Of a stretch of DNA of 64,000 nt, positions 15,977 to 62,589 are shown in pieces. Under the pieces are notes generated by a model. That model saw only the letters and a program-made list of their open reading frames with translations. It ran no database searches and was not told the DNA's origin. The stretch's first letter is position 1, and every line of letters starts with the position of its first letter. Position numbers and translations under genes: made by a program. The DNA is taken from positions 248,001 through 312,000 of the forward strand of contig JAQGEQ010000255.1 in assembly GCA_034620365.1 (NCBI GenBank), given 5' to 3'. This stretch comes from Pegea sp. RAD2-039 (lineage: Eukaryota > Chordata > Thaliacea > Salpida > Salpidae).

Positions 15977-18662
15977 ATGATGAATATAAGTCAATTATTT
16001 ATTATATTTTCTACAACAATTACTTTGGTTTATCCATTTAATTTGGATACTGAGCAAGGAGCACAAAAGTTTATACAGTCTCCTCTGCTTCATGAAAATG
16101 GAATAAGACTTTCAAATCAGTTCAAAACTTTTCCAAATGGAATTTCACCAACTTATTTTGGTTTTGACATAATTTTTGGAAATGGGTAAGTTGTTACAAT
16201 TATATATTTGCTTGATAAGTGCTAAAGATGATTGAAATTACAAATCTTTGTATTTTGATAGTAAGTTGATGATTGGTGCTCCAAAAACATTTGGTGAAGC
16301 TTCAGTTGGTTCAACTTCACGTATGGAAAAATTGAAATTGAAATTTTAATGAAGATATTATTTCTTTTGATTTCGTTTGAAGATTTTATCTTCCAAATTT
16401 TCATCACATAACATGCAATTATCGAATACAGATTAGATAAAACTTCAAAGATATCTTAAATACAACTTTTCTAAATTCTAGATACTGGACAACTATTTAT
16501 TTGCAAAGTCAATCAACTTTTCAATAAAATTTGGAAGTCTTTAAATATGTGCGAAGCTAAAATTTTTCAAAATAAAGAAATAACTAATTTTGGTTTGGAT
16601 CTAATAAAACCAAATAACAACCAAATCAAAGTACACAAATATTTGTCTAAATGTCATTAGAAAATAATCCAAGTTACTCATGACTACAAGCTAAAAACTT
16701 TTGTTTCTAACAAACTTAATCAACAGAATATTCTTTAATATTTAGATATTTTTTCAATAGCAAATTTTATTTTTGTTTTTTAAGGTACAATTTAGAAAAT
16801 AATCATCTAATTTTTTTCAAACATCTATTTATTCATCTTTAGATATGTTCTGTCACACAGCCAAAATATTGTGGTGAAAAATGGTTCCTACCAGGAAGTT
16901 GCTACAGTACTAGAGATGATAAAAATAATCAAAAACCTGATAAAGCAAAAACGTTCAGTCAGATATTTCTATAATTAGAAAAATTACTTCAATTTTACCA
17001 ATAATTGTTTGGCATCGTTTTAATAAAAAATTTTTTGTATTTTTAGAAGCCAACTTTTATATTTCGTTTAAAGTAATTTAGTTTCTAAAACTTATTTTTT
17101 TGTTCAAGTTGAATTATCGAAGTTATATTAGATATGTAACATGTTGTACTATATTATCATTTTTAAATAGCAATAAAAAATAGATTAAATTAAAAATTTA
17201 ATTAGGCTTTTTTCAAAAAAGCAAAAATTTTGCAAAAATTAATTGAATTTTTAACTTTCATTTTTTTTCAATTGATTTAATTTAGTAGAATGTCCGAAGA
17301 AAACTTTAGATGTCATCTTTTTATTGGATGGTTCAGGCTCTGTTAATGAAACCAATTTTCAACGAGTTAAAAGTTGGACAATAAGTTTGGCTTCTAAACT
17401 TGTGAAACAAAACAGAGAAACTCAAGTTGGAGTTATTCAATACTCAAAGTATGATCATCTAAAAACTGAAATTAGGCTTGCTGAAGTTACAAACCAGAAA
17501 AACTTTGATGTAAACTACTGTTTTCATTCTGTATTTTGAAATAAGAACAAAATTATTAAAAATCTAAATACAAAAATGATATAAAAAGAAACAAGTTAAA
17601 GTTTAGGTTTAAAGTAACATTTTGAAAATTCTATCTTCATATAAAAAGTATCTTGCTTACAGAGATCAGTTCAAAGAATAAAATATCAGAGAGGACGCTA
17701 TACTCAGACAGCTCAAGCAATGAATAATTCAGTTAGAGATTTTCAATCTTCTTACAGATACAATTCATCATCCACTAATAAAGTTCTTATTCTACTTACT
17801 GATGGACAGTAAGTATTAATACATTTATATCTACTTTTATCTTATTACCTTCTACTAAAACTAAATCATCTTAAGATCAAGTGATAGTTATAAGCTTCCT
17901 GGAGCATCTGCATTTGTCAAATCAATTGGAATCACAACATTTGCAGTTGGAGTCGGTAGTGCTAAAAAACGTGAACTTGAAGTTAGTTCAATAATTCATT
18001 TATATTTTTCCACATAAACCAACTTCATAAATACTTTTAACATTTATCAAATGATATTTCAATAAATGTTTAGAGTTTTAATACATTTGTAACTTCAACA
18101 AACATAAATCAATTTGATTTATCAACACAGATTATCACTAATGGAGACACAGATAGAATATTTTATGTCTCTGATTTCACTTCACTGGATGATATTGTCG
18201 ATAAACTTGAACAGAAGATAGATTTGTTAGTTCTTGAAGGTTAAAGTTTTTTTATTTAATTACTTTTGCAACTATTAAATGTTACTTAACTTAAAAGATT
18301 AAATTTTAAAACATTGTTTTCTTAATTGATTGTAATTTGATTTTACGACTTTTGTATTTGATTCTCTTTTCATGTAATGAGAATTATCAAACTTCAAAGA
18401 TTATATGATTTAATTTTCTGAAGTTCTTTTTACAGAATTTTCATCTTGAAAAAATATTCTCTTATATTTAATTCATAGCTTAATATGTTAAAATAATTTT
18501 CTTCTATAGTTGTTTGCAAATAAAGTGATATTTTCTATTCAAGTTTACTATTTTTCATCATTAGGAAAGAAAACAGAAAATTCTACAAAATCTTTTGTCT
18601 ATGAAAAGGAATTTGCTCAAAAAGGAATATCATCTACAACTTTAAAAGTATTTTTCATCTAG
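15977..18662 (+). pseudogene. Integrin-alpha I-domain gene, copy 1 (broken in exon 2)
   Basis: Exons by comparison with other copies: 15977-16185, 16262-(donor lost), 16482-16630, 16843-16957, 17289-17509, 17663-17808, 17876-17981, 18131-18239, 18565-18647, stop 18660-18662. Exon 2 no longer has the donor used in the other copies. Its frame instead runs through MEKLKLKF to a TAA at 16347-16349, leaving a 98-aa secreted stub (signal peptide plus blade 1). Exon 4 ends at an unusual donor (gtcaga). From exon 3 on the frame is intact: I domain with DGSGSV, TQTAQA and LLTDG, so the MIDAS residues are all present. The damage may therefore be recent, or an unseen alternative splice may rescue it. 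An in-frame upstream extension to 15737 is not used, because the conserved signal peptide starts at 15977. Confidence 0.7.
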
Positions 18663-18709
18663 TTTTAAAATATTGTGAATTATACTTTTGTTTATAAAAA
18701 GTTAATCTA

Positions 18710-18755
18710 AATAAATAGAACTTAGTTGTATATGTGTGCGTGTGTTTGTGTGTGA
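18710..18755 (+). promoter_or_regulatory. Poly(A) signal and GT-rich element after copy 1
   Basis: AATAAA at 18710-18715 lies 48 nt after the stop and is followed by a TG-rich run (about 18728-18755). Upstream hexamer plus downstream GU-rich element is the standard cleavage/polyadenylation layout, supporting a real gene end here. Confidence 0.5.
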
Positions 18756-20680: not shown

Positions 20681-20689
20681 GAGATAGAT

Positions 20690-23631: not shown

Positions 23632-26403
23632 ATGAAATTTCGATTGTTACTTTTGCAACTTTTTGCAACAATATCTGTAGTCTATCCATTCAATATTGAA
23701 AGTCGTTTCTCACCAAAATTGATTCAGCCAGCATCTTATACAGAAGAAACAATCTCAGAGTCTTTTAAAACTTATCCAAACGAAACTGCTCCAAGATATT
23801 TTGGTTACGACTTTCTTTACAATAACGAGTGAGTTATTTAATAGATGCTTTTGTAAAATAGATAACAAGTATAAATATCTTGTTTATATGTTGAAGTAAA
23901 CTATTGGTTGGAGCGCCAAAAAAGACACGAAAAAGTTCAGGAGAAGATGAATTTAGAGGTTTGTGGGAACATTAATCATTATGAGCTATTATTAAATATG
24001 ATTATAGACATTAAATAAAGAAATATATATTTCTCAAATAATACATTTTATTATTATAAAATTTTTTTATTGTTTTCGTTTATTTATTCTATTTAAGCTG
24101 CAAATTTAAAAGTGATTTGAACAAAATGTATCTTGCATCTTTCATTTATAATATCTAATGGTATTAATAAAGTAATAATACACTTTACATTTATATATAA
24201 ATATTGACAGTATAAGTAGTAGTGTTAAAATAAGTTAGATTTAACGATACTTTAAAATAATTTTAGCAAATAATTTTTTGGTTTTTCTCAAGGTCACTTT
24301 TTTAGTATTTTCTTGATTGCTACTTAAATTAACGGAATTACTTTCATACTATTAGTAAATGTCACAAAAATTACAAATCAGTTGTTATAATCTGTATTTT
24401 TTTGTATTTCATTTTGTATTCAGTGGTTGGTGGATTATTAGAATGTACAACAAACTTCAATATCGATAATTCTTCAAGTTGCAAATCCAAACTACCTGAT
24501 TCAGTTGAAGGAGAAAACTTCGGATTGAATGTTATCAAGCCACAAGACAATCAGATGAAAGTAAACTTCCTTCAATAGAAATTAAATCAGGAAAAAGAAA
24601 AATACTTTTACTTTATAACTATATCTTCTTAGATTTGTTCACCAACAACACCAATAATTTGTAGTAATTTTGGGCTGCTACCTGGAGTTTGTTTTAACAG
24701 CAACAATGATGGAAAAACCTGGCAACGGAAATCAACTTTTGGTAAAATTGTTTTCTAAATATAAAAAATACTATCTTAAAAATAAAGCATTTTAAACAGA
24801 CAAGTCTTTTCTTTTATAATCTCATGATTTGGATTAACTAATTTTTATTTTAATATTGTCAGTGAATAAATGACAAATTAAATATGAACAATTGAATCAA
24901 CTAAATAAATAATTTTATGTCTTAAATACAAACTTAAGTTTTGAAAAATCACTTATAACTTCGTTAGTTTAAACCTTGAATAAAATTTTGATAAAAATAA
25001 AAGACAATTATTGAAGACCGCTTTAATAGGAAATTTTTTCTAAATATTTGTACAGATTGTCCAAAAAGTGATCTGGACATAATGTTTGTATTGGATGGTT
25101 CTAGATCTGTTGGAAATGAAAACTTTATAATTGTGAAAAATTGGACAAAAGCCGTAATCTCACAATTTTATAAATTTAACAACAAATCTCAAATTGGAGT
25201 CGTACAATATTCTCATTTCTTCAAAAAGTAGAAAACGAAGTTTTTTTCATAAACTTTTCTTTGATTTGGTTTATTTAGATACGATGACTACCAGCCCTAC
25301 ATGAAGACAGAAATAAAATTACAACAAATTTCTAACTTGACTAACTTCAATGTAAGTTTTTAAGTGAGATCATTTTCTAAAAATTTTATAGTTAATTTGA
25401 AAATTTGTTGAACCTTTGTAACTTAAGCACATCTGTAAAGATATTTAATAAGAAAATTTGTTTATAGAAACGTTTAGATGGAATAAAACTGCAAGAGTTG
25501 ACAACTCATACGGCTCATGCACTAAACAAAACAGTTGACGACTTTCAATCTTCAAATAGATACAATTCCTCATTTACTAATAAAGTTCTCATTTTGCTGA
25601 CTGATGGACAGTAAGTAAAAAATTGTACAAAAGCTTATATTAAAATAAAATCATCTTAAGATCAGATGATCGTAAAGACCTTCCTGCAACATCCGACTAT
25701 CTAAAATCACTTGGAATCACAACATTTGCAGTTGGAGTCGGTGAAGCGGATGAGAAAGAACTTAAAGTTTGTTTATTTCGAAACTTCAATAAAAATAATT
25801 ATAATTAAGACTCGTTTCTATTTTAGTAAACTTTCAAATTAATTATAATTAATATTTGATTTTTTTCAGATAGTTGCACAAAATGATACAAAGCGGATTT
25901 TTTATGTTTCTGATTTCAACAATTTGGAAACAATTATTGATCAGTTGAAAGATGAAGTTATTTCATTAAGTCTTGAAGGTTCTTATTTGTTTCTTCTCTA
26001 TTTGGAAATTCTATCCCATAAGTATTATAGAAAATAATGCATTATCAATTATACATTTCTTTGTCTGTTTCTTTTCTAATAAAAAGAAGTAACTCCTTTT
26101 TAGATCATCAGTTATTGAAAGTATAAAGATTTGCTCTGTGTCTTATAAATATGTAAACGCGGCTGACTCTATAATAAAAATTTTGGTTTCATACTTTCAT
26201 AATTTTATAAAAATTCATTTTTAAATCTGTTATACCTTTTACTGACATTGAGACATAATCATGTCTTTAAAACCAGATCTTTATGATTTCTTTTTATAGG
26301 AAACAGCAAAACTTCATCTTCAAGTTTGGGAACAGAATTTTCTCAACTTGGAATCTCATCAACAACATCAAAAGTATTTTTATTTTTCAAATCTAGTTTA
26401 TAG
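23632..26403 (+). CDS. Secreted integrin-alpha I-domain protein, copy 2 (divergent), 403 aa
   Basis: Exons: 23632-23828, 23897-23958, 24424-24560, 24633-24741, 25056-25227, 25279-25351, 25468-25610, 25661-25766, 25870-25978, 26300-26373 plus nine codons to the stop at 26401-26403. This is the most divergent member and the only one whose I-domain first exon is split, by a 51-nt intron. It has a signal peptide (MKFRLLLLQLFATISVVYP), mature start FNIES, blade 1 YFGYDFLY...LLVGAPKK, blade 2 ENFGLNVIKPQD, and the linker cysteines CSP, CSN, CFN and CPK. The I domain has DGSRSV, THTAHA and LLTDG, so the metal site is intact. It ends after SLGTEFSQLGISSTTSK plus a short tail. No transmembrane segment. 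The inverted fragment at 14.4 kb derives from a gene like this one. Confidence 0.82.
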
Positions 26404-28650: not shown

Positions 28651-31163
28651 ATGATGAATATAAGTCAAGTATTTATTATATTTTCTACAATAATTACTTT
28701 CGTTTATCCATTTAATTTGGAAACTCAGCAAGGAGCACAAAAGTTTATACAGTCTCCTCTGCTTCATGAAAATGGAATAAGACTTTCAAATCAGTTCAAA
28801 ACTTTTCCAAATGGAATTTCACCAACTTATTTTGGTTTTGACATAATTTTTGGAAATGGGTAAGTTGTTACAATTATATATTTGCTTGATAAGTGCTAAA
28901 GATGATTGAAATTACAAATCTTTGTATTTTGATAGTACGTTGATGATTGGTGCTCCAAAAACTTTTGAAAAAAGAAAGATTGGATTAAATACAAAAGTGA
29001 TTACAGGTTTGTGGGAAGCAATAAAAGTTCTTTTGTTTTTAAGTGAATAAAATTAATCTTTTCTTAGAAAAAATTTAAAGTTATTTTTAATAATCTGTGG
29101 GTAAGTACATTAGAAGAAACAATTCCATTTCGAGTTCTTACTTTGAAAACAAAATTTTGTGATCTTTAAAATATAAATAAAATAATAAATTAACATATAA
29201 TAAAAATAATAATTTTTTTTATTTTAAACAATTCAGATGAAGGTGAATTATATTTTTGTAAAGTCAGCCAAATTTTCGATGATATTTGGACGGCTTCAGA
29301 TATGTGTGAAACTAAATCTTTTCACCAAGAAGGAGAAACTAATTTTGGTTTAGATCTAATGAAACCACAAAACAACCGAATCAAAGTATAAAAATTGACT
29401 GAAAATGGTTAAAAAATAAAACAAAATTAGATTTAAATAAAAAACTTTCCTCCAAATTAAAAACATTTTTAAAACTTGAATACTCCTATTTTCACTTCAG
29501 TTCTTACAAATATCTTTAAAAGAATAATTGCGTAATAATCTTCATATATTAACATTTGATGTACTTAAGGTATGTTCTGCTACAAAGTCAAAAGATTGTG
29601 ACGAATTGAGGTACTTACCTGGAAGATGTTACAACAGTAAAAACGGTGGAAATTATTGGGAAGGGGATAAAACAAATACTTTTGGTTAGAATTATTTTTA
29701 CCAAATAATTGTTACTACTCTTTCTCAAATTCTGTTTAGTCTTCACAACTATTAGAAAAATATTTCCTTAAATTAGAAATTTCAAAACCAATTTATTAGA
29801 AAGTTTTTGATTTATAAGTTACAAGACTTCTGTTTTAACAAAAATATTTTTAGAATAGATTCAGTTTCAGTAAAAAGATTTTTTTGTGATTCATTTTTCT
29901 AGAATGTCCGAAGAAAACTTTAGATGTTATCTTTTTATTGGATGGTTCAGGCTCTGTTAATGAAACCAATTTTCAACGAGTTAAAAGTTGGACAATAAGT
30001 TTGGCTTCTAAACTTGTGAAACAAAACAGAGAAACTCAAGTTGGAGTTATTCAATACTCAGAGTCTAATTATCTGAAAACTGAAATTAGGCTTGCTGAAG
30101 TTACAAACCAGAAAAAATTTGATGTAAGCTACTGTTTTCATTCTGTATTTTGAAATAAGAACTAAATTATTAAAAATATAAATACAAAAATGATATAAAA
30201 AGAAACAAGTTAAATTTTGGTTTAAAGTAATAAACATTTTTGTAACATTTTGAAAATTCTATCCAGAATTTAATAAATTCTATCTTCATATAAAAAGTAT
30301 CTTGCTTACAGAAATTTGTTCAAGCAATAAAATATCAAAATGGAGTTTACACTTTTACCGCTCAAGCATTGAATAATTCAGTTATAGATTTCCAATCTTC
30401 TTACAGATACAATTCATCATCCACTAATAAAGTTCTTATTCTACTTACTGATGGACAGTAAGTATTAATACAATTATATCTATTTTCATCTTATTACCTT
30501 CTACTAAAACTAAATCATCTTAAGATCAAGTGATAGTTATAAGCTTCCTAGAGTATCTGCATTCGTCAAATCAATTGGAATCACAACATTTGCAGTTGGA
30601 GTCGGTAGTGCTGACAAACGTGAACTTAAAGTTAGTTCAATAATTCATTTATATTTTTCCACATAAACCAACTTCATAAATACTTTTAACATTTATCAAA
30701 TGATATTTCAATAAATGTTTAGAGTTTTAATACATTTGTAACTTCAACAAACATAAATCAATTTGATTTATGAACACAGATTATCACTAATGGAGACACA
30801 GATAGAATATTTTATGTCTCTGATTTCACTTCACTGGATGGTATTGTCGATAAACTTGAACAGAAGATAAATTTGCTAGCTCTTGAAGGTTAGTTGATTT
30901 GATGAGACAACTTTTGTATCTAATGAGAATTATTAAATTGAAATATTTCAGTGATTATTTTTAACTATTTTTTTAATAGTTTTTTTGTAAACTCAGTAAT
31001 CTTTCAAACCTGAGTTTCAAATTTTTCTTTCTTAGGAAAAGGGACAGGAAATGAGACAAGACCTTATTTTTATGGAACTGAATTTGCTCAAGAAGGAATT
31101 TCATCAACAACTTTAAAAGTATTTAATTTTTGTTTAATCTTGCATAAAATCTTTGTGATGTAA
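28651..31163 (+). CDS. Secreted integrin-alpha I-domain protein, copy 3, 417 aa
   Basis: Exons: 28651-28859, 28936-29006, 29237-29385, 29580-29694, 29903-30123, 30312-30457, 30525-30630, 30780-30888, 31036-31118, running on 14 codons to the stop at 31161-31163. The gene is a hybrid. Promoter and exon 1 resemble copy 1. Exons 2-3 are its own (MIGAPKTFEKRKIG; the second blade keeps NFGLDLMKP). From within exon 4 (about 29600) to the spacer it is almost identical to the 5.1 kb units. The I domain carries DGSGSV as in copy 1, but the following exon reads YQNGVYTFTAQALNNS, shared only with copy 8. MIDAS residues are intact (DGSGS, T of FTAQ, D of LLTDG). A two-cysteine blade-1 loop and four-cysteine linker match I-domain integrins. 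Likely secreted. Confidence 0.83.
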
Positions 31164-33938: not shown

Positions 33939-36277
33939 ATGATGAATATAAGTCAATTATTTATTATATTTTCTACAATAATTACTTTTGTTTATCCATT
34001 TAATTTGGAAACTCAGCAAAGAGAACAAAAGTTTATACAGTCTCCTCTGCTTCATAAAAATGGAATAAGACTTTCAAATCAGTTCAAAACTTTTCCAAAT
34101 GGAATTTCACCAACTTATTTTGGTTTTGACATAATTTTTGGAAATGGGTAAGTTGTTACAATTATATATTTGCTTGATAAGTGCTAAAGATGATTGAAAT
34201 TACAAATCTTTGTATTTTGATAGTAAGTTGATGATTGGTGCTCCAAAAACATTTGGTGAAGCTTCAGTTGGTTCAACTTCACGTATGAAAAAGTTAAAAG
34301 GTTAAGAAAGGAAATTACCAGTAGACTAGAGTTTAACTAACTTCTACAAGCTCTATGTACTTTTATATAAATATTTATCTTTCTACTTATTAAGCTGTTT
34401 ACTTTAAATATTAGTTTTTTGAAACTTATAGATCAAAATATATAAAAATAATTCTTGTTAACAAAACCTTGATAAATATTATAAGTTATTTTTGATTTTA
34501 AAAACATTACAGATACTGGAGAATTATTTATTTGTGAAATTAAACAGCTCTTCAATAAGACATGGAAGTCTTCAGAAGATTGTAGAACAGCTAAACCTTC
34601 TACCAAAATGAGACGAACAAATTTTGGCTTGGATATAATCAAGCCAATTAACAACCAAATAAAAGTAAATAAAAATCTGTTTGAAAATAAACAACAAATT
34701 TTATGTATCAATGTAAAATCTATAATATTCCTTTTCTGCAAATGTTGAGTAAATTTAAGTTTAATTATCGTCTGTTGCACTAAATCTACTATTTCTCAAA
34801 TAAAACTTTTACATTTAATTTATATTTTAGATATGTTCTGCCACAGAACAAAAAGATTGTGACGAATTGAGGTACTTACCTGGAAGATGTTACAACAGTA
34901 AAAACGGTGGAAATTATTGGGAAGGGGATAAAACAAATACTTTCGGTTAGAATTATTTTTACCAAATAAATGTTACTACTCTTTCTCAAATTCTGTTTAG
35001 TCTTCACAACTATTAGAAATATATTTCCTTAAATTAGAAATTTCAAAACCAACTTATTAGAAAGTTTTCGATTTATAAGTTACAAAACTTCTGTTTTAAC
35101 AAAAATATTTTTAGACTAGATTCAGTTTTAGTAAAAAGATTTTTTTGTGATTCATTTTTCTAGAATGTCCGAAGAAAACTTTAGATGTCATCTTTTTATT
35201 GGATGGTTCATCCTCTGTTAAATATCTCAATTTTCAACGAGTTAAAAGTTGGACAAAACGTTTAGCTTCTAAACTTGTGAAACAAAACAGAGAAACTCAA
35301 GTTGGAGTTATTCAATATTCAAAGTATAATTATTTAAGAGCTGAAATTAGGCTTGCTGAAGTTACAAACCAGAAAAACTTTGATGTAAGCTACTGTTTAC
35401 GTAGAGAAAATTCTATCTTCATATAAAAAGTATCTTGCTTACAGAGATCTGTTCAAAGAATAAAATATCAGAGAGGACGCTATACTCACACAGCTCAAGC
35501 ATTGAATAAATCAGTTATAGATTTCCAATCTTCTTACAGATACAATTCATCATCCACTAATAAAGTTCTTATTCTACTTACTGATGGACAGTAAGTATTA
35601 ATACATTTATATCTACTTTTATCTTATTACCTTCTACTAAAACTAAACCATCTTAAGATCAAGTGATAGTTTAAGTCTTCCTGGAGCATCTGCATTTGTC
35701 AAATCAATTGGAATCACAACATTTGCAGTTGGAGTCGGTAGTACTGACAAACGTGAACTTGAAGTTAGTTCAATAATTCATTTATATTTTTCCACATAAA
35801 CCAACTTCATAAATACTTTTAACATTTACCAAATGATATTTCAATAAATGTTTAGAGTTTTAATACATTTGTAACTTCAACAAACATAAATCAATTTGAT
35901 TTATCAACACAGATTATCACTAATGGAGACACAGATAGAATATTTTATGTCTCTGATTTCACTTCACTGGATGATATTGTCGATAAACTTGAACAGAAGA
36001 TAAATTTGCTAGCTCTTGAAGGTTAGATGATTTGATGAGACAACTTTTGTATCTAATGAGAATTATTAAATTGAAATATTTCAAGATTATTTCTAACTAT
36101 TCTTTTAATAGTTTTTTTGTAACCTGAGTTTCAAATCTTTCTTTCTTAGGAAAAGGGACAGGAAATGAGACAAGACCTTATTTTTATAGAACTGAATTTG
36201 CTCAAGAAGGAATTTCATCAACAACTTTAAAAGTATTTAATTTTTGTTTAATCTTGCATAAAATCTTTGTGATGTAA
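33939..36277 (+). CDS. Secreted integrin-alpha I-domain protein, copy 4, 420 aa
   Basis: Reference copy. Exons: 33939-34147, 34224-34300, 34513-34664, 34831-34945, 35164-35384, 35445-35590, 35658-35763, 35913-36021, 36150-36232, then 14 in-frame codons to the stop at 36275-36277. Residues 1-20: signal peptide, cleavage likely before FNLE, the classic mature integrin alpha start. About 45-85: FG-GAP blade 1 (YFGFDIIFGN, LMIGAPK). About 96-145: cysteine loop and blade 2 (NFGLDIIKP). About 146-187: four-cysteine linker (CSAT, KDCDE, GRCYN, ECPKK) exactly where I-domain integrins have it. About 190-375: I/VWA domain with DGSSSV, HTAQA, LLTDG and the ITTFAVGVG strand. About 376-406: start of blade 3 (TEFAQEGISSTTLK). 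Then it stops; thigh, calf, transmembrane and cytoplasmic parts are absent. Soluble, metal-dependent ligand binding is inferred. Intron 5 is only 60 nt. Confidence 0.85.
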
Positions 36278-41378: not shown

Positions 41379-44114
41379 ATCTTTGTGATGTAAACTTCTG
41401 TTTACAATAAGTTAGTTTAAGCTAGAAATAAGTTAGTTGTGAATGTGTGTGTGTGTGTCTGAGCTCTTCATCATCAAGTTTTGGAAGCTGAAGAACGAAA
41501 AGAATATTATTTCAAGACTAAAATTAATTTTCATTAGTAAGTTGAATAGTTCAACTTTTTTTGTTATTTGCTGACTTGATTTTGTTTTTAGATTTTTAGA
41601 TTTTTGTTTAAAATGGTGACAAATGGATAAAGATGTCGCTACTTTCTCCTATTAACATTAAAATTAGCTTCATTTAAACTTGTGAGTTTTTCTAACAACT
41701 GCTTACAATGTATTTTTGAAAACTTAAGCTGGTTATTGTACTTACTTTTAGATTTATACGAAAGATTTAAAAGTCAAAAATATAAAAGTAAACTAATTAA
41801 CGTCATGATAATTTCGATGAAATTAATGAATTGAAGAAGAATACAAAAAGAAATTGACGTCGTCGTAAAATCGGATAATTCCATTTGTAAGTAGCAAAAT
41901 ATTAATATTTTCTGTTTAGGTTTTTCATTTAAAAATATTTTTAAAAAGTATCAAGTTAAATTTAGTTTCCAAATTGACATTTACAGATAAATAAGAGTTT
42001 GATTTCAAAGTTGAAGTTTCATCTTAAGATTCAACTGCAGCAGATTTGTTATATTTGGATTCTGAAGACTTTTATTGACTATTTGCTTTTTCTATCGATA
42101 TTTTGCTACCTACTTTAAGATGTTCTTTAAATCTTTTAAACTTATATCAAATCTTCTTATTATATCCAAACAATTTTTGTAGTTTGAAACATCTCTAATT
42201 CAAATTCAAGTTGAATTATAAGAATAAAACTGTTTTGAATTTCTAAAATTTAATTAATTCATCATTTAATACAAAACTTTTTGATTGAAGTTTAGTTTTT
42301 AGTTATATCAGATAAGCAGTATAGTGTGAGTTTGAGACTTTAATTAAGAATTAAATTAGAAATTTTATGAAACATTTAACTAATTGACAGAATATACAAG
42401 TAGCTTGAAGCTTTTATCAAAATTCTAAAAGATTAGTTTTGATTTTCTCACTTCATATCTATTCTATAAAGTTCAAAGAATTAACTAAGCATGTGTCTAT
42501 AAGTAATTCGTCAGTCAACAAATACAACAAACTCAACAAAGTTGTCCAGTATTCAAGTTGAATAGTTTATATTTAATATTTTAAAAAGATAATTTTATCA
42601 TCATTTATATTTACTAACAGCTAACAAGTGAAACTTTCAAATTAAAACTTCTAAACAAGTAAAAGATACAACATTTTGTAAAAATAGTCAGTGAATAAAA
42701 GATGTTTTATAAAATATAGTAATTGAATAAAAAATCCAGCTATGAAATGCAAATTTATTAGTTTCAAAACTTCTTTATTTTTTCAATTAATTAAACTAAA
42801 AAACCAAATTACAAAATTTGGTTTGTTTACTTTTATAATTTGCTTAAGATTTTGAGAATAGCTATTTTGTTTAAAAAATTCCAAAAAACAGGAAACTTTC
42901 TCTGAATAAAAGTTAAAAATATCTCCATATATTAAACACTCATAGAGAAAGTTATGTTAGAATTTCAAGAAAATTATAAACTTTATGTTATTTAAGAACT
43001 CAATATTTAATTTTTACGTAAACTACAAAAATAAAGTTTCCAAATTTAGGAATGTTTCAGTTTTTCCACTTCACTATTTTTTCTTTATTACTGAAGTTCT
43101 CTAAATATATTTTCAATTACATCAAAATTTAGTTGATTTAAGCAAGTTTAGAAACAGATTATTATCTACAGCTGTATACGCTTATAAAAACTGAGAGAGT
43201 TAAATAATGATTTGTACTAATCATATTTAATTATATTTATACTATTATTCAAAGAATATGTTTTAGGAAATTATTCTTTAAAGTTACATATGTGAATACT
43301 TAAAATAGTCTTAGTTATAATGTTTAGAAAGTTTTATTTATTTTCACAATTTGTATAAACATATATTTTAGGAAAGCATTAACAAGATTTATTTTATTTA
43401 AGATAAATTTTATATTTGTAAACTAATTAAGAATAATCGTTCCAATGATACTAAACTATCTGATTAATCCTATAAACCTAAAATAGTTATTTATTGTTTT
43501 AAACAATTTACTATATAAAGGTTGCTTAATAAATTATAATAATTTTAAACCATTGTTGTTTAGTATCTTTTTATCTGAAAATATTTCTACATCTTTCTTT
43601 ACATGCTTTTAAAAATTTCACTTTTTAATTACTACTTTGTTCTTAATCTTAAAAACTTTTTTAAAAGCTGTTGAAATAGTTAATGGAAACAGCAAGCAAA
43701 AATGTAGAAAGTATTTATTTATATGTAATTAATTAACTAATTCAAAAATTATTTCATCTATAAAGTATCCTATGATAACTAAAATATCATTCTTTTGTTT
43801 TATAAGATAAGTTTTTAATAAATCAAAAAGTTAGAAATATTTATTTTAAACTTTGTTTAATTAAAAACATTAATATTCAATTCTTAACGTAAACTATAAA
43901 ATCAAAATATTTTACAAGAATATAATATTTATAGAATATTTAGTCAATTTGTAATATTATAAACATTAAAACTCGGATAGAGCATTTATCAATAAAAAAA
44001 AACTAAATCTATTATCCTAGGTTTCTCTTAAACTTAAAAATATCTTTTTTCAAGTTAATTAATCTTATATTTTTAGATTTCAATATCTTCTATTCTCTAT
44101 TTTGACGTTTACAA
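41379..44114 (+). repeat. Array spacer after copy 5
   Basis: aataag (41427-41432), TG run (41443-41459), and the hairpin at 42801-42824. No coding sequence supported. Confidence 0.7.
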
Positions 44115-44176: not shown

Positions 44177-46534
44177 ATGATGAATATAAGTCAATTATTT
44201 ATTATATTTTCTACAATAATTACTTTTGTTTATCCATTTAATTTGGAAACTCAGCAAGGAGCACAAAAGTTTATACAGTCTCCTCTGCTTCATAAAAATG
44301 GAATAAGACTTTCAAATCAGTTCAAAACTTTTCCAAATGGAATTTCACCAACTTATTTTGGTTTTGACATAATTTTTGGAAATGGGTAAGTTGTTACAAT
44401 TATATATTTGCTTGATAAGTGCTAAAGATGATTGAAATTACAAATCTTTGTATTTTGATAGTACGTTGATGATTGGTGCTCCAAAAACATTTGGTGAAGC
44501 TTCAGTTGGTTCAACTTCACGTATGAAAAAGTTAAAAGGTTAAGAAAGGAAATTACCAGTAGACTAGAGTTTAACTAACTTCTACAAGCTCTCTGCACTT
44601 TTATATAAATATTTATCTTTCTACTTATTAAGCTGTTTACTTTAAATATTAATTTTTTGAAACTTATAGATCAAAATATATAAAAATAATTCTTGTTAAC
44701 AAAACCTTGATAAATATTATAAGTTATTTTTGATTTTAAAAACATTACAGATACTGGAGAATTATTTATTTGTGAAATTAAACAGCTCTTCAATAAGACA
44801 TGGAAGTCTTCAGAAGATTGTAGAACAGCTAAACCTTCTACCAAAATGAGACGAACAAACTTTGGCTTGGATATAATCAAGCCAATTAACAACCAAATAA
44901 AAGTAAATAAAGATCTGTTTGAAAATAAACAACAAATTTTATGTATCAATGTAAAATCTATAATATTCCTTTTCTGCAATTGTTGAGCAAATTTAAGTTT
45001 AATTATCGTCTGTTGCACTAAATAGACTATTTCTCAAATAAAACTTTTACATTTAATTTATATTTTAGATATGTTCTGCCACAGAACAAAAAGATTGTGA
45101 CGAATTGAGGTACTTACCTGGAAGATGTTACAACAGTAAAAACGGTGGAAATTATTGGGAAGGGGATAAAACAAATACTTTTGGTTAGAATTATTTTTAC
45201 CAAATAAATGTTCCTACTCTTTCTCAAATTCTGTTTAGTCTTCACAACTATTAGAAAAATATTTCCTTAAATTAGAACTTTCAAAACCAATTTATTAGAA
45301 AGTTTTCGATTTATAAGTTACAAAACTTCTGTTTTAACAAAAATATTTTTAGACTAGATTCAGTTTTAGTAAAAAGATTTTTTTGTGATTCATTTTTCTA
45401 GAATGTCCGAAGAAAACTTTAGATGTCATCTTTTTATTGGATGGTTCATCCTCTGTTAAATATCTCAATTTTCAACGAGTTAAAAGTTGGACAAAACGTT
45501 TAGCTTCTAAACTTGTGAAACAAAACAGAGAAACTCAAGTTGGAGTTATTCAATATTCAAAGTATAATTATTTAAGAACTGAAATTAGGCTTGCTGAAGT
45601 TACAAACCAGAAAAACTTTGATGTAAGCTACTGTTTTCGTAGAGAAAATTCTATCTTCATATAAAAAGTATCTTGCTTACAGAGATCTGTTCAAAGAATA
45701 AAATATCAGAGAGGACGCTATACTCAGACAGCTCAAGCATTGAATAATTCAGTTAGAGATTTCCAATCTTCTTACAGATACAATTCATCATCCACTAATA
45801 AAGTTCTTATTCTACTTACTGATGGACAGTAAGTAGTAATACAATTATATCTACTTTTATCTTATTACCTTCTACTAAAACTAAACCATCTTAAGATCAA
45901 GTGATAGTTTAAGTCTTCCTGGAGCATCTGCATTTGTCAAATCAATTGGAATCACAACATTTGCAGTTGGAGTCGGTAGTGCTGACAAACGTGAACTTGA
46001 AGTTAGTTCAATAATTCATTTATATTTTTCCACATAAACCAACTTCATAAATACTTTTAACATTTATCAAATGATATTTCAATAAATGTTTAGAGTTTTA
46101 ATACATTTGTAACTTCAACAAACATAAATCAATTTGATTTATCAACACAGATTATCACTAATGGAGACACAGATAGAATATTTTATGTCTCTGATTTCAC
46201 TTCACTGGATGATATTGTCAATAAACTTGAACAGAAGATAAATTTGCTAGCTCTTGAAGGTTAGATGATTTGATGAGGCAACTTTTGTATCTAATGAGAA
46301 TTATTAAATTGAAATATTTCAGTGATTATTTCTAACTATTCTTTTAATAGTTTTTTTGTAAACTCAGTAATCTTTCAAACCTGAGTTTCAAATTTTTCTT
46401 TCTTAGGAAAAGGGACAGGAAATGAGACAAGACCTTATTTTTATGGAACTGAATTTGCTCAAGAAGGAATTTCATCAACAACTTTAAAAGTATTTAATTT
46501 TTGTTTAATCTTGCATAAAATCTTTGTGATGTAA
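44177..46534 (+). CDS. Secreted integrin-alpha I-domain protein, copy 6, 420 aa
   Basis: Exons: 44177-44385, 44462-44538, 44751-44902, 45069-45183, 45402-45622, 45683-45828, 45896-46001, 46151-46259, 46407-46489, stop 46532-46534. Exon 6 reads YTQTAQALNNSVRDF, the version of copy 1, whereas copies 4, 5 and 7 have YTHTAQALNKSVIDF. The neighbouring exon 5 is the copy 4-8 type (DGSSSVKYLNF). So the second MIDAS loop is exchanged independently of the first. One substitution (DIVNKLEQ) lies in the last helix of the I domain. The intron before exon 9 is longer than in copy 4 and matches copy 3 there, again a mosaic pattern. All frames intact. Confidence 0.85.
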
Positions 46535-49307: not shown

Positions 49308-51640
49308 ATGATGAATATAAGTCAATTATTTATTATATTTTCTACAATAATTACTTTTGTTTATCCATTTAATTTGGAAACTCAGCAAGGAGAACAAAAG
49401 TTTATACAGTCTCCTCTGCTTCATAAAAATGGAATAAGACTTTCAAATCAGTTCAAAACTTTTCCAAATGGAATTTCACCAACTTATTTTGGTTTTGACA
49501 TAATTTTTGGAAATGGGTAAGTTGTTACAATTATATATTTGCTTGATAAGTGCTAAAGATGATTGAAATTACAAATCTTTGTATTTTGATAGTACGTTGA
49601 TGATTGGTGCTCCAAAAACATTTGGTGAAGCTTCAGTTGGTTCAACTTCACGTATGAAAAAGTTAAAAGGTTAAGAAAGGAAATTACCAGTAGACTAGAG
49701 TTTAACTAACTTCTACAAGCTCTCTGCACTTTTATATAAATATTTATCTTTCTACTTATTAAGCTGTTTACTTTAAATATTAAATTTTTGAAACTTATAG
49801 ATCAAAATATATAAAAATAATTCTTGTTAACAAAACCTTGATAAATATTATAAGTTATTTTTGATTTTAAAAACATTACAGATACTGGAGAATTATTTAT
49901 TTGTGAAATTAAACAGCTCTTCAATAAGACATGGAAGTCTTCAGAAGATTGTAGAACAGCTAAACCTTCTACCAAAATGAGACGAACAAATTTTGGCTTG
50001 GATATAATCAAGCCAATTAACAACCAAATAAAAGTAAATAAAAATCTATTTGAAAATAAACAACAAATTTTATGTATCAATGTAAAATCTATAATATTCC
50101 TTTTCTGCAAATGTTGAGTAAATTTAAGTTTAATTATCGTCTGTTGCACTAAGTCTACTATTTCTCAAATAAAACTTTTACATTTAATTTATATTTTAGA
50201 TATGTTCTGCCACAGAACAAAAAGATTGTGACGAATTGAGGTACTTACCTGGAAGATGTTACAACAGTAAAAACGGTGGAAATTATTGGGAAGGGGATAA
50301 AACTTTTGGTTAGAATTATTTTTACCAAATAAATGTTACTACTCTTTCTCAAATTCTGTTTAGTCTTCACAACTATTAGAAATATATTTCCTTAAATTAG
50401 AAATTTCAAAACCAATTTATTAGAAAGTTTTCGATTTATAAGTTACAAAACTTCTGTTTTAACAAAAATATTTTTAGACTAGATTCAGTTTTAGTAAAAA
50501 GATTTTTTTGTGATTCATTTTTCTAGAATGTCCGAAGAAAACTTTAGATGTCATCTTTTTATTGGATGGTTCATCCTCTGTTAAATATCTCAATTTTCAA
50601 CGAGTTAAAAGTTGGACAAAACGTTTAGCTTCTAAACTTGTGAAACAAAACAGAGAAACTCAAGTTGGAGTTATTCAATATTCAAAGTATAATTATTTAA
50701 GAACTGAAATTAGGCTTGCTGAAGTTACAAACCAGAAAACCTTTGATGTAAACTACTGTTTTCGTAGAGAAAATTCTATCTTCATATAAAAAGTATCTTG
50801 CTTACAGAGATCTGTTCAAAGAATAAAATATCAGAGAGGACGCTATACTCACACAGCTCAAGCATTGAATAAATCAGTTATAGATTTCCAATCTTCTTAC
50901 AGATACAATTCATCATCCACTAATAAAGTTCTTATTCTACTTACTGATGGACAGTAAGTATTAATACATTTATATCTACTTTTATCTTATTACCTTCTAC
51001 TAAAACTAAACCATCTTAAGATCAAGTGATAGTTTAAGTCTTCCTGGAGCATCTGCATTTGTCAAATCAATTGGAATCACAACATTTGCAGTTGGAGTCG
51101 GTAGTGCTGACAAACGTGAACTTGAAGTTAGTTCAATAATTCATTTATATTTTTCCACATAAACCAACTTCATAAATACTTTTAACATTTACCAAATGAT
51201 ATTTCAATAAATGTTTAGAGTTTTAATACATTTGTAACTTCAACAAACATAAATCAATTTGATTTATCAACACAGATTATCACTAATGGAGACACAGATA
51301 GAATATTTTATGTCTCTGATTTCACTTCACTGGATGATATTGTCGATAAACTTGAACAGAAGATAAATTTGCTAGCTCTTGAAGGTTAGATGATTTGATG
51401 AGACAACTTTTGTATCTAATGAGAATTATTAAATTGAAATATTTCAAGATTATTTCTAACTATTCTTTTAATAGTTTTTTTGTAACCTGAGTTTCAAATC
51501 TTTCTTTCTTAGGAAAAGGGACAGGAAATGAGACAAGACCTTATTTTTATAGAACTGAATTTGCTCAAGAAGGAATTTCATCAACAACTTTAAAAGTATT
51601 TAATTTTTGTTTAATCTTGCATAAAATCTTTGTGATGTAA
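49308..51640 (+). CDS. Secreted integrin-alpha I-domain protein, copy 7, 418 aa
   Basis: Exons: 49308-49516, 49593-49669, 49882-50033, 50200-50308, 50527-50747, 50808-50953, 51021-51126, 51276-51384, 51513-51595, stop 51638-51640. Exon 4 is 6 nt shorter than in every other array unit. The deletion removes two codons (Thr-Asn) just before the donor and keeps the frame, so the linker between blade 2 and the I domain is two residues shorter. Keeping the frame, as with all other indels in copies 4-8, argues for selection on the protein. Exon 5 has NQKTFD instead of NQKNFD. MIDAS intact (DGSSS, T of HTAQ, D of LLTDG). Confidence 0.85.
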
Positions 51641-54421: not shown

Positions 54422-56759
54422 ATGATGAATATAAGTCAATTATTTATTATATTTTCTACAATAATTACTTTCGTTTATCCATTTAATTTGGAAACTCAGC
54501 AAGGAGAACAAAAGTTTATACAGTCTTCTCTGCTTCATGAAAATGGAATAAGACTTTCAAATCAGTTCAAAACTTTTCCAAATGGAATTTCACCAACTTA
54601 TTTTGGTTTTGACATAATTTTTGGAAATGGGTAAGTTGTTACAATTATATATTTGCTTGATAAGTGCTAAAGATGATTGAAATTACAAATCTTTGTATTT
54701 TGATAGTACGTTGATGATTGGTGCTCCAAAAACGTTTGGTGAAGCTTCAGTTGGTTCAACTTCACGTATGAAAAAGTTAAAAGGTTAAGAAAGGAAATTA
54801 CCAGTAGACTAGAGTTTAACTAACTTCTACAAGCTCTCTGCACTTTTATATAAATATTTATCTTTCTACTTATTAAGCTGTTTACTTTAAATATTAAATT
54901 TTTGAAACTTATAGATCAAAATATATAATAATAATTCTTGTTAACAAAACCTTGATAAATATTATAAGTTATTTTTGATTTTAAAAACATTACAGATACT
55001 GGAGAATTATTTATTTGTGAAATTAAACAGCTCTTCAATAAGACATGGAAGTCTTCAGAAGATTGTAGAACAGCTAAACCTTCTACCAAAATGAGACGAA
55101 CAAATTTTGGCTTGGATATAATCAAGCCAATTAACAACCAAATAAAAGTAAATAAAAATCTGTTTGAAAATAAACAACAAATTTTATGTATCAATGTAAA
55201 ATCTATAATATTCCTTTTCTGCAAATGTTGAGTAAATTTAAGTTTAATTATCGTCTGTTGCACTAAGTCTACTATTTCTCAAATAAAACTTTTACATTTA
55301 ATTTATATTTTAGATATGTTCTGCCACAGAACAAAAAGATTGTGACGAATTGAGGTACTTACCTGGAAGATGTTACAACAGTAAAAACGGTGGAAATTAT
55401 TGGGAAGGGGATAAAACAAATACTTTTGGTTAGAATTATTTTTACCAAATAAATGTTACTACTCTTTCTCAAATTCTGTTTAGTCTTCACAACTATTAGA
55501 AAAATATTTCCTTAAATTAGAACTTTCAAAACCAATTTATTAGAAAGTTTTCGATTTATAAGTTACAAAACTTCTGTTTTAACAAAAATATTTTTAGACT
55601 AGATTCAGTTTTAGTAAAAAGATTTTTTTGTGATTCATTTTTCTAGAATGTCCGAAGAAAACTTTAGATGTCATCTTTTTATTGGATGGTTCATCCTCTG
55701 TTAAATATCTCAATTTTCAACGAGTTAAAAGTTGGACAAAACGTTTAGCTTCTAAACTTGTGAAACAAAACAGAGAAACTCAAGTTGGAGTTATTCAATA
55801 TTCAAAGTATAATTATTTAAGAACTGAAATTAGGCTTGCTGAAGTTACAAACCAGAAAAAATTTGATGTAAGCTACTGTTTTCGTAGAGAAAATTCTATC
55901 TTCATATAAAAAGTATCTTGCTTACAGAGATCTGTTCAAGCAATAAAATATCAAAATGGAGTTTACACTTTTACCGCTCAAGCATTGAATAATTCAGTTA
56001 TAGATTTCCAATCTTCTTACAGATACAATTCATCATCCACTAATAAAGTTCTTATTCTACTTACTGATGGACAGTAAGTATTAATACATTTATATCTACT
56101 TTTATCTTATTACCTTCTACTAAAACTAAACCATCTTAAGATCAAGTGATAGTTTAAGTCTTCCTGGAGCATCTGCATTCGTCAAATCAATTGGAATCAC
56201 AACATTTGCAGTTGGAGTCGGTAGTGCTGACAAACGTGAACTTGAAGTTAGTTCAATAATTCATTTATATTTTTCCACATAAACCAACTTCATAAATACT
56301 TTTAACATTTACCAAATGATATTTCAATAAATGTTTAGAGTTTTAATACATTTGTAACTTCAACAAACATAAATCAATTTGATTTATCAACACAGGTTAT
56401 CACTAATGGAGACACAGATAGAATATTTTATGTCTCTGATTTCACTTCACTGGATGATATTGTCGATAAACTTGAACAGAAGATAAATTTGCTAGCTCTT
56501 GAAGGTTAGATGATTTGATGAGGCAACTTTTGTATCTAATGAGAATTATTAAATTGAAATATTTCAAGATTATTTCTAACTATTCTTTTAATAGTTTTTT
56601 TGAACCTGAGTTTCAAATTTTTCTTTCTTAGGAAAAGGGACAGGAAATGAGACAAGAACTTATTTTTATAGAACTGAATTTGCTCAAGAAGGAATTTCAT
56701 CAACAACTTTAAAAGTATTTAATTTTTGTTTAATCTTGCATAAAATCTTTATGATGTAA
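54422..56759 (+). CDS. Secreted integrin-alpha I-domain protein, copy 8, 420 aa
   Basis: Exons: 54422-54630, 54707-54783, 54996-55147, 55314-55428, 55647-55867, 55928-56073, 56141-56246, 56396-56504, 56632-56714, stop 56757-56759. Last complete unit of the array. Exons 1-5 are the common type, but exon 6 reads VQAIKYQNGVYTFTAQALNNS, otherwise found only in copy 3 at the other end of the array. The end of exon 5 (NQKKFD) also matches copy 3, so the exchanged tract covers the exon 5/6 boundary. Exon 8 begins VITNG instead of IITNG. MIDAS residues are unchanged (T of FTAQ). All splice sites intact. Confidence 0.85.
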
Positions 56760-58095: not shown

Positions 58096-58225
58096 TTATT
58101 TATTTATTTTCTTATTTATTACAATAAATGTGAAAGAGGGTACCTGAAGAAAGCACCTCTCGCTAACACACATTCTACAAATAATATCTATTAAGTCAGA
58201 AATACAGAAAGCAAAAAATATACCG
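58096..58225 (-). mobile_element. LINE 3' terminus fragment next to the array edge
   Basis: Minus-strand 3' end of the LINE family: tail AATAAATAAATAAA-like, then acaataaatgtgaaagaggg on the plus strand and the shared block ctcgctaacacacattct. It begins about 170 bp to the right of the point where array identity ends. Confidence 0.7.
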
Positions 58226-58784: not shown

Positions 58785-58924
58785 CAGCTTCTGTGACGCC
58801 AACTGGGCGTAGCTGCATCAGTTCGTCTGTTCCGCTGCATAACCTTGTTGGCGTGGAGAGTGGAACCCTGCTGCATGGGCAACAACTGGATCTTTGTTCC
58901 CGGTTCAAAGCAGATCAAAAAAGA
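58785..58924 (+). mobile_element. SINE 3' half, copy C
   Basis: Matches the 3' domain of the SINE at 20300-20680: cgccaactgggcgtagctgc, then a block around gcaacaactggatct, ending in aagcagatcaaaaaag. The tRNA head is missing, so this is 5'-truncated. A 67-codon frame across it (58793-58996) is accidental. Confidence 0.75.
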
Positions 58925-59945: not shown

Positions 59946-62589
59946 ATGATCATTTGTCAGATGAATATGAGTCAGTTATTGATATTGCTTTCTACTTTAA
60001 TTACTTTGGTTTATCCATTTAATTTGGAAACTCAGCAAGGAGAACAAAAGTTTATACAGTCTCCTCTGCTTCATGAAAATGGAATAAGACTTTCAAATCA
60101 GTTCAAAACTTTTCCAAATGGAATTTCACCAACTTATTTTGGTTTTGACATAATTTTTGGAAATGGGTAAGTTGTTACAATTATATATTTGCTTGATAAG
60201 TGCTAAAGATGATTGAAATTACAAATCTTTGTATTTTGATAGTAAGTTGATGATTGGTGCTCCAAAAGCTGTTGGTAAAGCTTCAGTTGGTTCAACTTCA
60301 AAAATTGATAAGATAAAAGGTTTGTTAGAAACAGTTAAAGTTTTTTTTAAGTAATACTATTATCTAAATTATATTATTCAAAAAAATTTAGTTTCTTAGT
60401 TAAATCTTTTTATGATAAATAATTTTTTATAAAATTTATTTTATTTTTATAAATAATTACGATTTTGTTTGTTTATTTGATGTTCTTAAAATATTCAGAT
60501 TTAGGAGAACTACGTATCTGTGAACTTAAATCAATTTTCAATGCAAACTGGGAAGTTTCAAAGATGTGTAGATCTAGACTTAAATATAAAGATGAGGACT
60601 ATCATTTTGGCATGGATCTAATAAAACCACATAACGCGGAAATGAAAGTAAACAATTTTCGTACAAGATAATATTCTCAATTATAATCTTTTGTCATTTA
60701 AAAATTTTGAAGTTTTTCTTTCTACTTGGGAATTTTGATTATTAATCAAATGTTCTATCTAAATGTTTTGAAGTAATTATATAGCAAATAAAAACCTTAA
60801 ACAAACTAATTGCTTGTGTAAAGCTTATAATTACATTTCAATTTCATCTCAAATGTTAAGTGTAATGTTTTTTCAGATATGTTCGATAACACAGGCAGCC
60901 GTTTGTAATGAAATCAACTTTTTACCTGGAAGATGCTACAGTAGTAAAAACGGTGGCATTTTTTGGAAGCCTGACAAAGCAAAGACTTTTGGTAATATTT
61001 ATAAATATTTGTATACCAGTTTATTTTCACTCAACACTTTGTTTAATAATTATACTTTTGATCTAAACAGTTTTTTTTCTTTTATTAGGTTTATTATAAT
61101 TATATAATTATTAACATTATAATTATAATATAACTATGATTATTTATTTATTTATTATATATAATTATATACTTATTAACTTATTTGCTGTAACAATTTA
61201 AAAATGATTTAAAATCAAATTAAATCTTTCCATTTTTTATTCTTGGTTTACTAAATATCAGCTTTTTCACTGAGTTCAATTTAACAGAATGTCACAAGGG
61301 ACTATTAGATGTCATCTTTTTATTGGATGGTTCACTTTCCGTAAATTCAAATAACTTTCAACTAGTCAAAGATTGGACAATAAACTTAGCAACGGAACTC
61401 GTAAAACATAACAAACAAACTCAAGTGGGAGTCATGCAATTCTCGATGTCTAATGAGCTAAAAACTGAAATTAAGCTTGCTGAAGTTACAAACCAGAAAA
61501 ACTTTGATGTAAACTACTGTTTTCATTCTATATTTTGAAATAAGAACTAAATGATTAAAAATCTAAATACAAAAATGATATAAAAAGAAACAAGTTAAAT
61601 TTTGGTTTAAAGTAATATTTTGAAAATTCTATCCAGAATTTAATAAATTCTATCTTCATATAAAAAGTATCTTGCTTACAGAGATCAGTTCAAGCAATAA
61701 AATTTCAGAAAGGACACTATACCCAAACAGCCCATGCATTGCAGAATTCAGTTAAAAATTTTCAATCTTCTTACAGATACAAGTCATCATCCACTAATAA
61801 AGTTCTTATTCTACTTACTGATGGACAGTAAGAAGACTCATAAAATATGAATATTTTCATCTAAGATAAATAAATTTTAGATCCACTCACCCTGAAAATC
61901 TTCCTTCAGTATCTGCTTATCTCAAATCAGTTGGAATCACAACATTTGCTGTTGGAGTCGGAAAAGCAGTCAGAAGTGAACTTGAAGTTAGTCTGATATT
62001 CTAAATCTTTTTTATTTTTAAAATCAATCTTTTACATCTTTGTGGTTGTAACGCCAGCTGGGCGTACCTCCATAAATCCGCTGCATACCTTAATAAGTCC
62101 TACTGCTAAAGCAACAACTGGATCTCTATAGTATCTACCCTGGCACACATTAACATGGTCGTTCTCGGCCAAAGCAGGCCAAAAAAAATAGATAAATGCT
62201 TTATAAAAAATGTTACAGTTTTGTCATCTGTAGACTTAAAAAAATGGTTAATTTCAGATTATAACATGTGGAGATAAAAACCGAATCTTTTACGTTTCGG
62301 ATTTCATTTCTTTAGATGAAGTTTTAGACGAGTTGGAACAGAAAATAAATTTGCTTACTCTTGAGGGTGAGAAGTTTCTACAAAAGTAGTTTTTAAATAT
62401 TTCAGTTTAATTACATTCAACTTTTTTATAAATCAAAATCATAGAAATAAATGTTTTTAATTCTAATAAATTTTATTATTAGGAAAGGATAAAGAAAATG
62501 ACTCAAAATCTTTTGTTTATGGAACTGAATTTGCTCAAGTAGGAATCTCATCAACAACTTTAAAAGTATTTTTTGAAATTTATTTTTAA
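59946..62589 (+). CDS. Secreted integrin-alpha I-domain protein, copy 9, 416 aa
   Basis: Exons: 59946-60166, 60243-60319, 60499-60647, 60877-60991, 61288-61508, 61682-61827, 61881-61986, 62258-62366, 62483-62565, stop 62587-62589. Start may be 59946 (MIICQMNMSQ) or the in-frame 59961 (MNMSQLLILLSTLITLVYP), which fits the other signal peptides better. Mature start FNLETQQ is nearly identical to the array copies, but later exons diverge: blade 2 HFGMDLIKP, I domain DGSLSVNSNNF, TQTAHA and LLTDGQST. The four-cysteine linker (CSIT, VCNE, GRCYS, ECHKG) and MIDAS are intact. It ends after TEFAQVGISSTTLK plus seven residues. Intron 7 contains a SINE fragment. Intermediate between copy 2 and the array in divergence. 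Confidence 0.83.
62044..62192 (+). mobile_element. SINE fragment, copy D, in intron 7 of copy 9
   Basis: The 3' domain of the same SINE family: gtaacgccagctgggcgtac, then gcaacaactggatctctata, ending at aagcaggccaaaaaaaa. It is inserted between exons 7 and 8 in sense orientation and does not disturb the splice sites. This intron in the other copies has no such sequence. Confidence 0.75.

Follow-up and report, generated by a model that had tools for sequence, protein, structure and literature searches.

The window analysed here, a stretch of 64,000 nucleotides from the thaliacean Pegea sp. RAD2-039 (C58:248,001-312,000 of an assembly of 105.7 Mb), contains nine genes for the head of an I-domain integrin alpha chain, all of them on the plus strand and between positions 15,977 and 62,589. 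The product of each begins with a signal-peptide-like start; then come two blades of the propeller, a linker with cysteines, the I domain in full and, last, the first strand of blade 3. At about even confidence, we read these genes as coding for secreted, diversified recognition heads that would have arisen by 5'-partial duplication of an I-domain integrin-alpha gene.

The family extends beyond the window. Searched exon by exon (tblastn, the queries being the translated nine exons of a single copy), the 260 kb of C58:200,001-460,000, which contain no N, hold 15 copies and one fragment; six of the copies are situated beyond the window on the same contig, at 312-316 kb and 387-416 kb, and on both strands. 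Spliced alignment, in which only GT-AG introns were allowed, separates them into 11 type-A copies with nine exons and four type-B copies with ten, the latter possessing an extra intron inside the I domain. Fourteen of the 15 models are open throughout; in the remaining one (g10B, type B, outside the window) the aligner found no clean splice path through intron 5, such that this copy is doubtful. Proteins of type A and type B are 46-49% identical among the 14 open models, and those of type A are mutually 67-99% identical, with gene 9 at 67-70% to the others.

The original prediction had described a family of nine like genes in this region. All nine are present, eight with nine exons and gene 2 with ten, and the count is right for the window, whereas the family as a whole comprises the 15 copies and the fragment and, besides, a gene on C132. 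Likewise, eight of the nine are indeed alike in being of type A, whereas gene 2 is of type B, has the additional I-domain intron and is 47-49% identical to the type-A proteins.

Domain architecture and absence of the remaining integrin

Compared with integrin alpha-X, the type-A protein aligns colinearly over residues 132-421 (E 4e-19; the protein searched was an early model that included 19 residues later assigned to intron 7), and the type-B protein over residues 62-393 (E 2e-32), with the alignment ending at residue 339 of about 1,095 in alpha-X. In type B it covers 'VVGAPQK' in blade 1, 'GGLYQC' in blade 2, the cysteines of the linker, the I domain from end to end and the intrinsic-ligand Glu, and in both types 'EMAQEGFSA', the first strand of blade 3, lies within the aligned part. 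The homology to I-domain integrin alpha chains, as proposed at the outset, is not due to chance. Concerning the proposed FG-GAP blades 1 and 2, Pfam gave no FG-GAP match on the type-A protein, and their assignment is based on the colinear alpha-X alignment, which for blade 1 is good in type B (from residue 62) but weak in type A (from residue 132). Beyond the VWA domain, only integrins align with either type in searches of PDB.

The I domain itself is recognised by Pfam as VWA in the type-A protein (2.6e-33). It is inserted after blade 2, and the residues of the metal-ion-dependent adhesion site (MIDAS), DxSxS, T and D, are present as in I-domain alpha chains: at exon level DGSxS occurs in all 15 copies of C58, and TDG is found in 14 of the 15 models and in the exon match of g10B. 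The Thr of loop 2, at the position which we take to be the one of the usual MIDAS numbering, is replaced by Ser in gene 11. The linker cysteines, the I domain with its MIDAS, the intrinsic-ligand Glu, the first strand of blade 3 and, in type B, blades 1 and 2 are thus shared with vertebrate alpha-X and alpha-M (CR4 and CR3), whereas blades 3-7, thigh, calf, transmembrane segment and tail are undetected in the heads.

Judged by hydropathy only, a hydrophobic N-terminus precedes the mature start FN(L/I). The signal regions reach 19-residue means of 1.27-1.77, and outside them the maximum is 1.56, read-through tails included. The claim that no membrane helix exists is consistent with this maximum, with the reservation that some of the read-through tails come near the signal-region value.

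Concerning the rest of the integrin, a hidden Markov model (HMM) was made from the post-I part of three alpha chains of the same genome and run on stop-to-stop frames of at least 25 residues at E<=0.01. It gave 4, 8 and 12 matches in the loci C215, C6:3.37 Mb and C19, respectively, which served as positive controls, and none in the 5,147 frames of the 260 kb of C58 or in the 124 frames of 6 kb around the C132 gene. Searching the 260 kb by tblastn with 13 integrin pieces yielded nothing better than E 0.016, and none of the 17 matches obtained in a genome-wide FG-GAP search at E<=0.01 is situated on C58 or C132. No exon for the calcium-binding FG-GAP blades 4-7 of the seven-bladed propeller was found in the 260 kb, nor were thigh and calf domains detected there; a transmembrane segment with a GFFxR-type tail was not detected either, the best C58 match of the C6 tail query (E 0.033) being a hydrophobic stretch at 437.5 kb, distant from the genes. 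At the sensitivity of tblastn and of the HMM with its controls, the absence of leg domains that the first reading of the window had reported is supported for the 260 kb, and no exons for the remaining integrin were detected after exon 9 in this genomic sequence.

A shared-constant-region model of the protocadherin kind, in which many heads are spliced to one leg and tail, was considered as well. Within the sensitivity of these searches we rejected it on two grounds: the 260 kb yielded no exon for a leg or tail, and the copies lie in both orientations.

Relationships among the copies

A recent tandem array extends over positions 33939-59957 (plus strand), as delimited by comparison of its units, which start at genes 4 to 8. 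The units that begin at genes 4-7 are 5,114-5,131 bases long and mutually 98.3-99.0% identical, and the unit of gene 8 (5,536 bases) is 86.1-86.5% identical to them; within the array, homology extends over the whole 5.1 kb. Outside it, the copies lose their mutual homology some 130-245 bases beyond exon 9, save for scattered short matches. In type B and between genes 1 and 11, identity is 90-99% up to that same break and is then lost.

A head-only gene with the same exons and the same end is situated at C132:77,408-79,337 and is 40-47% identical to the C58 copies; no downstream exon shared between C132 and C58 was found. Since the C58 copies outside the array lose their homology after exon 9, and the C132 gene ends alike, the truncation is, as far as the alignments tell, old or repeated rather than the result of one broken copy.

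A longer I-domain alpha, situated on C215, resembles the heads in its linker pattern (CGNGALYVPGACY), its I domain and an exon border close to the same place, the homologous exon ending about five residues further at CAA|GTAACT. It differs in continuing into blades 3-7 and at least to the calf region, as read so far, and it is 33% identical to a type-A copy over the linker and the first half of the I domain. This alpha is present in two copies, one of which was read as far as the calf region.

Further I-domain sequences of the genome may belong to the same kind of gene. Matches to linker and I domain at C21:2230826-2231361 and C236:538950-539331, with no FG-GAP match nearby, may represent additional head-only genes, and at C245:656829-679064 a span of 22 kb contains four I-domain-like exons, all on the same strand, which perhaps constitute another tandem family. 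The alphas on C21, C6 and C19 show no VWA match at their places. The integrin alpha genes at C21:1469916-1484858 and C6:506572-510531 are single open frames of 1,068, 1,113 and 1,087 residues, whereas introns interrupt the genes at C6:3.37 Mb, C19 and C215.

Evidence for and against secreted recognition heads

According to the reading that we prefer, an I-domain integrin-alpha gene would have been partly duplicated, its first exons being kept up to the exon/intron border just after the I domain; the head-only copy would then have evolved as an independent gene, multiplied through tandem and inverted duplications and exchanged sequence among its copies. Each copy would most likely yield an exported protein of about 380 residues after signal cleavage, made up of two blades, a disulphide-bonded linker and an I domain whose binding site depends on metal. 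As blades 3-7, the legs and the membrane segment are lacking, a normal alpha/beta receptor should not form, and the head would act as a soluble, metal-dependent recognition protein in the body fluid or on a surface, either opsonin-like or agglutinin-like; with copies that differ in the metal-site loops, the family might cover a range of ligands. Transcription, secretion, the exact C-terminus, ligand binding and an immune role we infer. Several observations weigh against secreted recognition heads; they concern constraint, the place of variation, the border after exon 9 and the make-up of the head, and are given below with the alternatives on which they bear.

Compared with gene 9, the ratio of nonsynonymous to synonymous substitution rates (dN/dS) is 0.50 for gene 5 (bootstrap 0.37-0.69), 0.54 for gene 1 and 0.49 for gene 3, with upper limits of 0.69-0.73. 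Two type-B pairs gave 0.79 (0.46-1.47) and 0.56 (0.37-0.98), and gene 5 gave 0.70, 0.63 and 0.88 against genes 1, 11 and 3 (point values, without intervals); these pairs at 0.56-0.88 would fit a constraint that is partly relaxed. When 2,000 coding sequences were simulated under neutrality, 1.1% were still open at a divergence of 5% and none at 10%; for the array copies, which are young, open frames say little. That the copies are decaying partial duplicates without function is very unlikely. Truncation near an exon border, the recent tandem copies, the fragment, g10B with its unclear intron 5 and the one type-B pair with a dN/dS not distinguishable from 1 would fit decay; however, the 14 open models together with the simulation, and dN/dS values near 0.5 and clearly below 1 in the three type-A pairs with gene 9, argue against it, as does the same architecture in the C132 gene.

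Concerning diversity, the three MIDAS loops of type A contain 20 variable columns among 33, compared with 59 among 159 in the remaining I domain (Fisher p 0.019), an excess reached by two of 192 circular shifts, the unshifted one included. For type A, dN/dS is 0.93 within the loops versus 0.47 for the remaining I domain; without gene 9 the values are 1.20 and 0.59. In type B, with g10B pieced together from exon translations, 13 of 31 sites vary in the same loops versus 13 of 120 elsewhere (151 I-domain positions; p 1.9e-4; two of 151 shifts, the unshifted one included), and this is the better test, though not a fully blind one, as the loops had been named after the type-A pattern was seen and after a brief look at type B. 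In type A the exons of blade 2 vary no less (55 of 76 columns), such that variation is not special to the binding face. In blade 2 it is arranged in blocks common to distant genes such as 3 and 13, which points to sequence exchange between copies.

Directly after the last conserved codon of exon 9, the nine letters AAA|GTATTT are identical in all 15 copies of C58 (positions 41346-41354, plus strand, in gene 5), and the C132 gene has AAG|GTAAAA. Behind AAA|GTATTT the sequence diverges at once and the frame is not conserved between the subfamilies; an identical donor-like site with diverging sequence behind it has the appearance of a used donor. The site may be what is left of the ancestral intron border, past which translation now continues for a few residues, or else a functional donor that leads to a short final exon. 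The prediction that the genes stop here holds insofar as no integrin exon was detected downstream, but is called into question by this site, by its counterpart in C132 and by the unconserved frame beyond.

If read through, the tails comprise 4 to 14 residues in C58 (only four in genes 1 and 11) and 50 in C132. Hydrophobic tails reach 1.31-1.56 in genes 4, 6, 7 and 13 and 1.52 in C132, near the signal-region values, and may represent a weak anchor or lipid-anchor signal. In the 15 copies, the 24 bases richest in GT begin 54-95 bases behind exon 9 (positions 41432-41455, plus strand, in gene 5) and are possibly part of a 3' end signal. A polyadenylation site shortly after exon 9 is possible but weakly supported, because AATAAA is found in three of the 15 copies, AATAAG in eight, and neither of them in the four B copies.

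A hidden last exon (short, not of integrin type and joined to exon 9) or an anchor formed by the read-through tail would make the product a truncated integrin that is not simply soluble. This we consider rather unlikely. The donor-like sites in C58 and C132 fit it, as do the hydrophobic tails in part of the copies and, in type A, the GT-rich stretch that is followed by TGAG and a conserved TCTTCATC block, a possible acceptor and small exon. However, this block is absent from type B, homology between copies outside the array is gone at the break described above, no downstream exon common to C132 and C58 was found, and the tails of genes 1 and 11 comprise only four residues.

The make-up of the head bears on two further alternatives. 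At exon level, all 15 copies retain the intrinsic-ligand Glu (LEG), which serves an alpha/beta receptor. This would suit decoys or regulators: soluble heads might vie with complete I-domain integrins, among them the C215 alpha, for the same ligands, or might capture a beta subunit on its way through the secretory pathway and so weaken the function of the receptor. The conserved MIDAS also accords with this, and so does a genome that holds the longer C215 alpha and beta-subunit matches on four contigs, although these matches show only that partners exist. Such a role is nevertheless unlikely, given the identity of only 33% to the C215 alpha, a diversification of loops that is unexpected for simple decoys of one shared ligand, and a propeller face towards the beta subunit that is mostly missing. 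With two of the seven blades, the fold itself may be unstable.

The best overall E-values in PDB (2.5e-74 and 5.6e-61) belong to collagen VI alpha 3, which has several VWA repeats; its best single stretch scores 43.5 bits versus 71 for alpha-X in type A, and 38.7 versus 115 in type B. Together with the derivation of I domains from VWA domains of the collagen-VI type and the oligomerisation of a reconstructed ancestral I domain, as reported in passages of PMC12422189, this would suit matrix or tunic proteins, a structural family whose VWA heads oligomerise and bind collagen or tunic components. We regard this as quite improbable, as a parallel diversification of the metal site in two subfamilies is unexpected of structural proteins.

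Through I-domain integrins, vertebrate leukocytes bind complement and other cells bind collagen. The I domain has been reported in tunicate and vertebrate integrins and not in lancelets or echinoderms (according to passages of PMC4237329). In Ciona intestinalis, eight I-domain alphas (Ci-alpha1 to 8) are described, six of which have blood-cell expressed sequence tags, and alpha5-8 are recent tandem duplicates; they resemble the Pegea genes in the insertion of the I domain at the vertebrate position and in recent tandem duplication, whereas the four tandem genes possess 26-27 exons with alignments that reach the transmembrane segment and the cytoplasmic motif, and the heads here consist of the first exons only (passages of PMC1145181). 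Integrins homologous to CR3 and CR4 are reported on ascidian hemocytes (passages of PMC5465252).

For the secreted recognition heads favoured here, we place the recognition of microbes or complement products first among the possible functions, since the I-domain integrins of ascidians have been connected in the literature with hemocytes and with complement-receptor function and since the metal-site loops vary; decoy and matrix roles would be possible. More tentatively, the genes might constitute an integrin-derived humoral repertoire, that is, truncated alpha-I heads secreted from arrays, exchanging segments, diversified in all three MIDAS loops and binding microbes, complement or non-self cells. 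The variable-region chitin-binding proteins (VCBPs) of Ciona are likewise a secreted tunicate family recognising bacterial surfaces, a speculative likeness that concerns the proposed function only, whereas they are built of other domains and, in the passages of PMC5465252 that treat them, without integrin parts.

If this is correct, a soluble multigene family would have emerged from a cell-adhesion receptor. Diversified heads that stand free would show, as a natural experiment, what an I domain does apart from its receptor, and they would be relevant to the view that oligomers and avidity underlay the action of ancestral I domains (discussed in passages of PMC12422189); if soluble, they would be ready-made reagents for finding the tunicate ligands of CR3-like integrins. 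No head-only integrin-alpha family was found among the papers listed from the open-licence PMC literature on truncated or soluble integrin alpha or on family expansion in tunicates, which agrees with the original statement that the arrangement is undescribed.

Gene models and other features of the window

The splice contexts of type A were read directly. Exon 8 most likely starts 57 bases after the start of the longest open frame, because the longer version finds a match in gene 9 and in the four B copies with its residues 19-56 only, and the open frame of C132 starts at the revised position. Under the revised exon 8 the in-frame stop of gene 3 near 30771 lies in intron 7, and the reading of this gene as a pseudogene was therefore rejected.

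Gene 1 (type A, 15977-18662, plus strand as all the following) comprises exons 15977-16185, 16262-16320, 16482-16630, 16843-16957, 17289-17509, 17663-17808, 17876-17981, 18131-18239 and 18565-18647, and then its four-residue read-through tail and a stop; its exon 2 needs an unusual donor (GTATGG), and six residues are lost. Gene 2 (type B, 23632-26403) has ten exons at 23632-23828, 23897-23958, 24424-24560, 24633-24741, 25056-25227, 25279-25351, 25468-25610, 25661-25766, 25870-25978 and 26300-26373, with a tail of nine residues. Gene 3 (type A, 28651-31163) has exons 28651-28859, 28936-29006, 29237-29385, 29570-29684, 29903-30123, 30312-30457, 30525-30630, 30780-30888 and 31036-31118 before its tail.

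At the beginning of the array, gene 4 (type A, 33939-36277) consists of exons 33939-34147, 34224-34300, 34513-34664, 34831-34945, 35164-35384, 35445-35590, 35658-35763, 35913-36021 and 36150-36232 and a tail, and gene 5 (type A, 39055-41378) of exons 39055-39263, 39340-39416, 39629-39780, 39947-40061, 40280-40500, 40561-40706, 40774-40879, 41029-41137 and 41266-41348, also with a tail. Genes 6 (44177-46534), 7 (49308-51640) and 8 (54422-56759) are type-A genes of nine exons, the last of which are situated at 46407-46489, 51513-51595 and 56632-56714, respectively, each followed by a tail. The divergent type-A gene 9 (59961-62589) has exons 59961-60166, 60243-60319, 60499-60647, 60877-60991, 61288-61508, 61682-61827, 61881-61986, 62258-62366 and 62483-62565 and a tail. 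Genes 9 and 11 start one codon downstream of the start of the other type-A genes. The fragment of a further copy, at 14212-14589 on the minus strand, matches exons 6-8 only (tblastn).

Just before the start codon, type-A genes possess an acceptor-like sequence, either TTTCTTAG or TTTTTAG (positions 15950-15977 and upstream of the other genes), which resembles the acceptor of a 5'-UTR intron or of a spliced leader; in gene 9, CAG directly precedes the ATG.

Among the other features of the window, an exon of an argininosuccinate synthase gene is found at 1967-2488 on the plus strand (Pfam 8.5e-36). Retrotransposon frames occupy 3923-5040 on the minus strand, where 3926-4390 matches RVT_1 (E 9e-11) and 4318-5040 gave no Pfam match, and an open frame at 7019-8050, also on the minus strand, matches DUF3504 just under the curated cut-off (E 1.8e-6). 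A search for mitochondrial COX1, made for the genetic code, gave no match. A rotifer host, considered because of the AT-richness, was likewise dropped: a 23-base spliced leader had no match, and the weak GH6 match led to a tunicate as the probable host. The fusion of cellulose synthase (CesA) with GH6 is a mark of tunicates; at C14:73-76 kb, a weak GH6 match (27.5 bits, cut-off 27) adjoins frames with hydrophobic stretches seen by eye.

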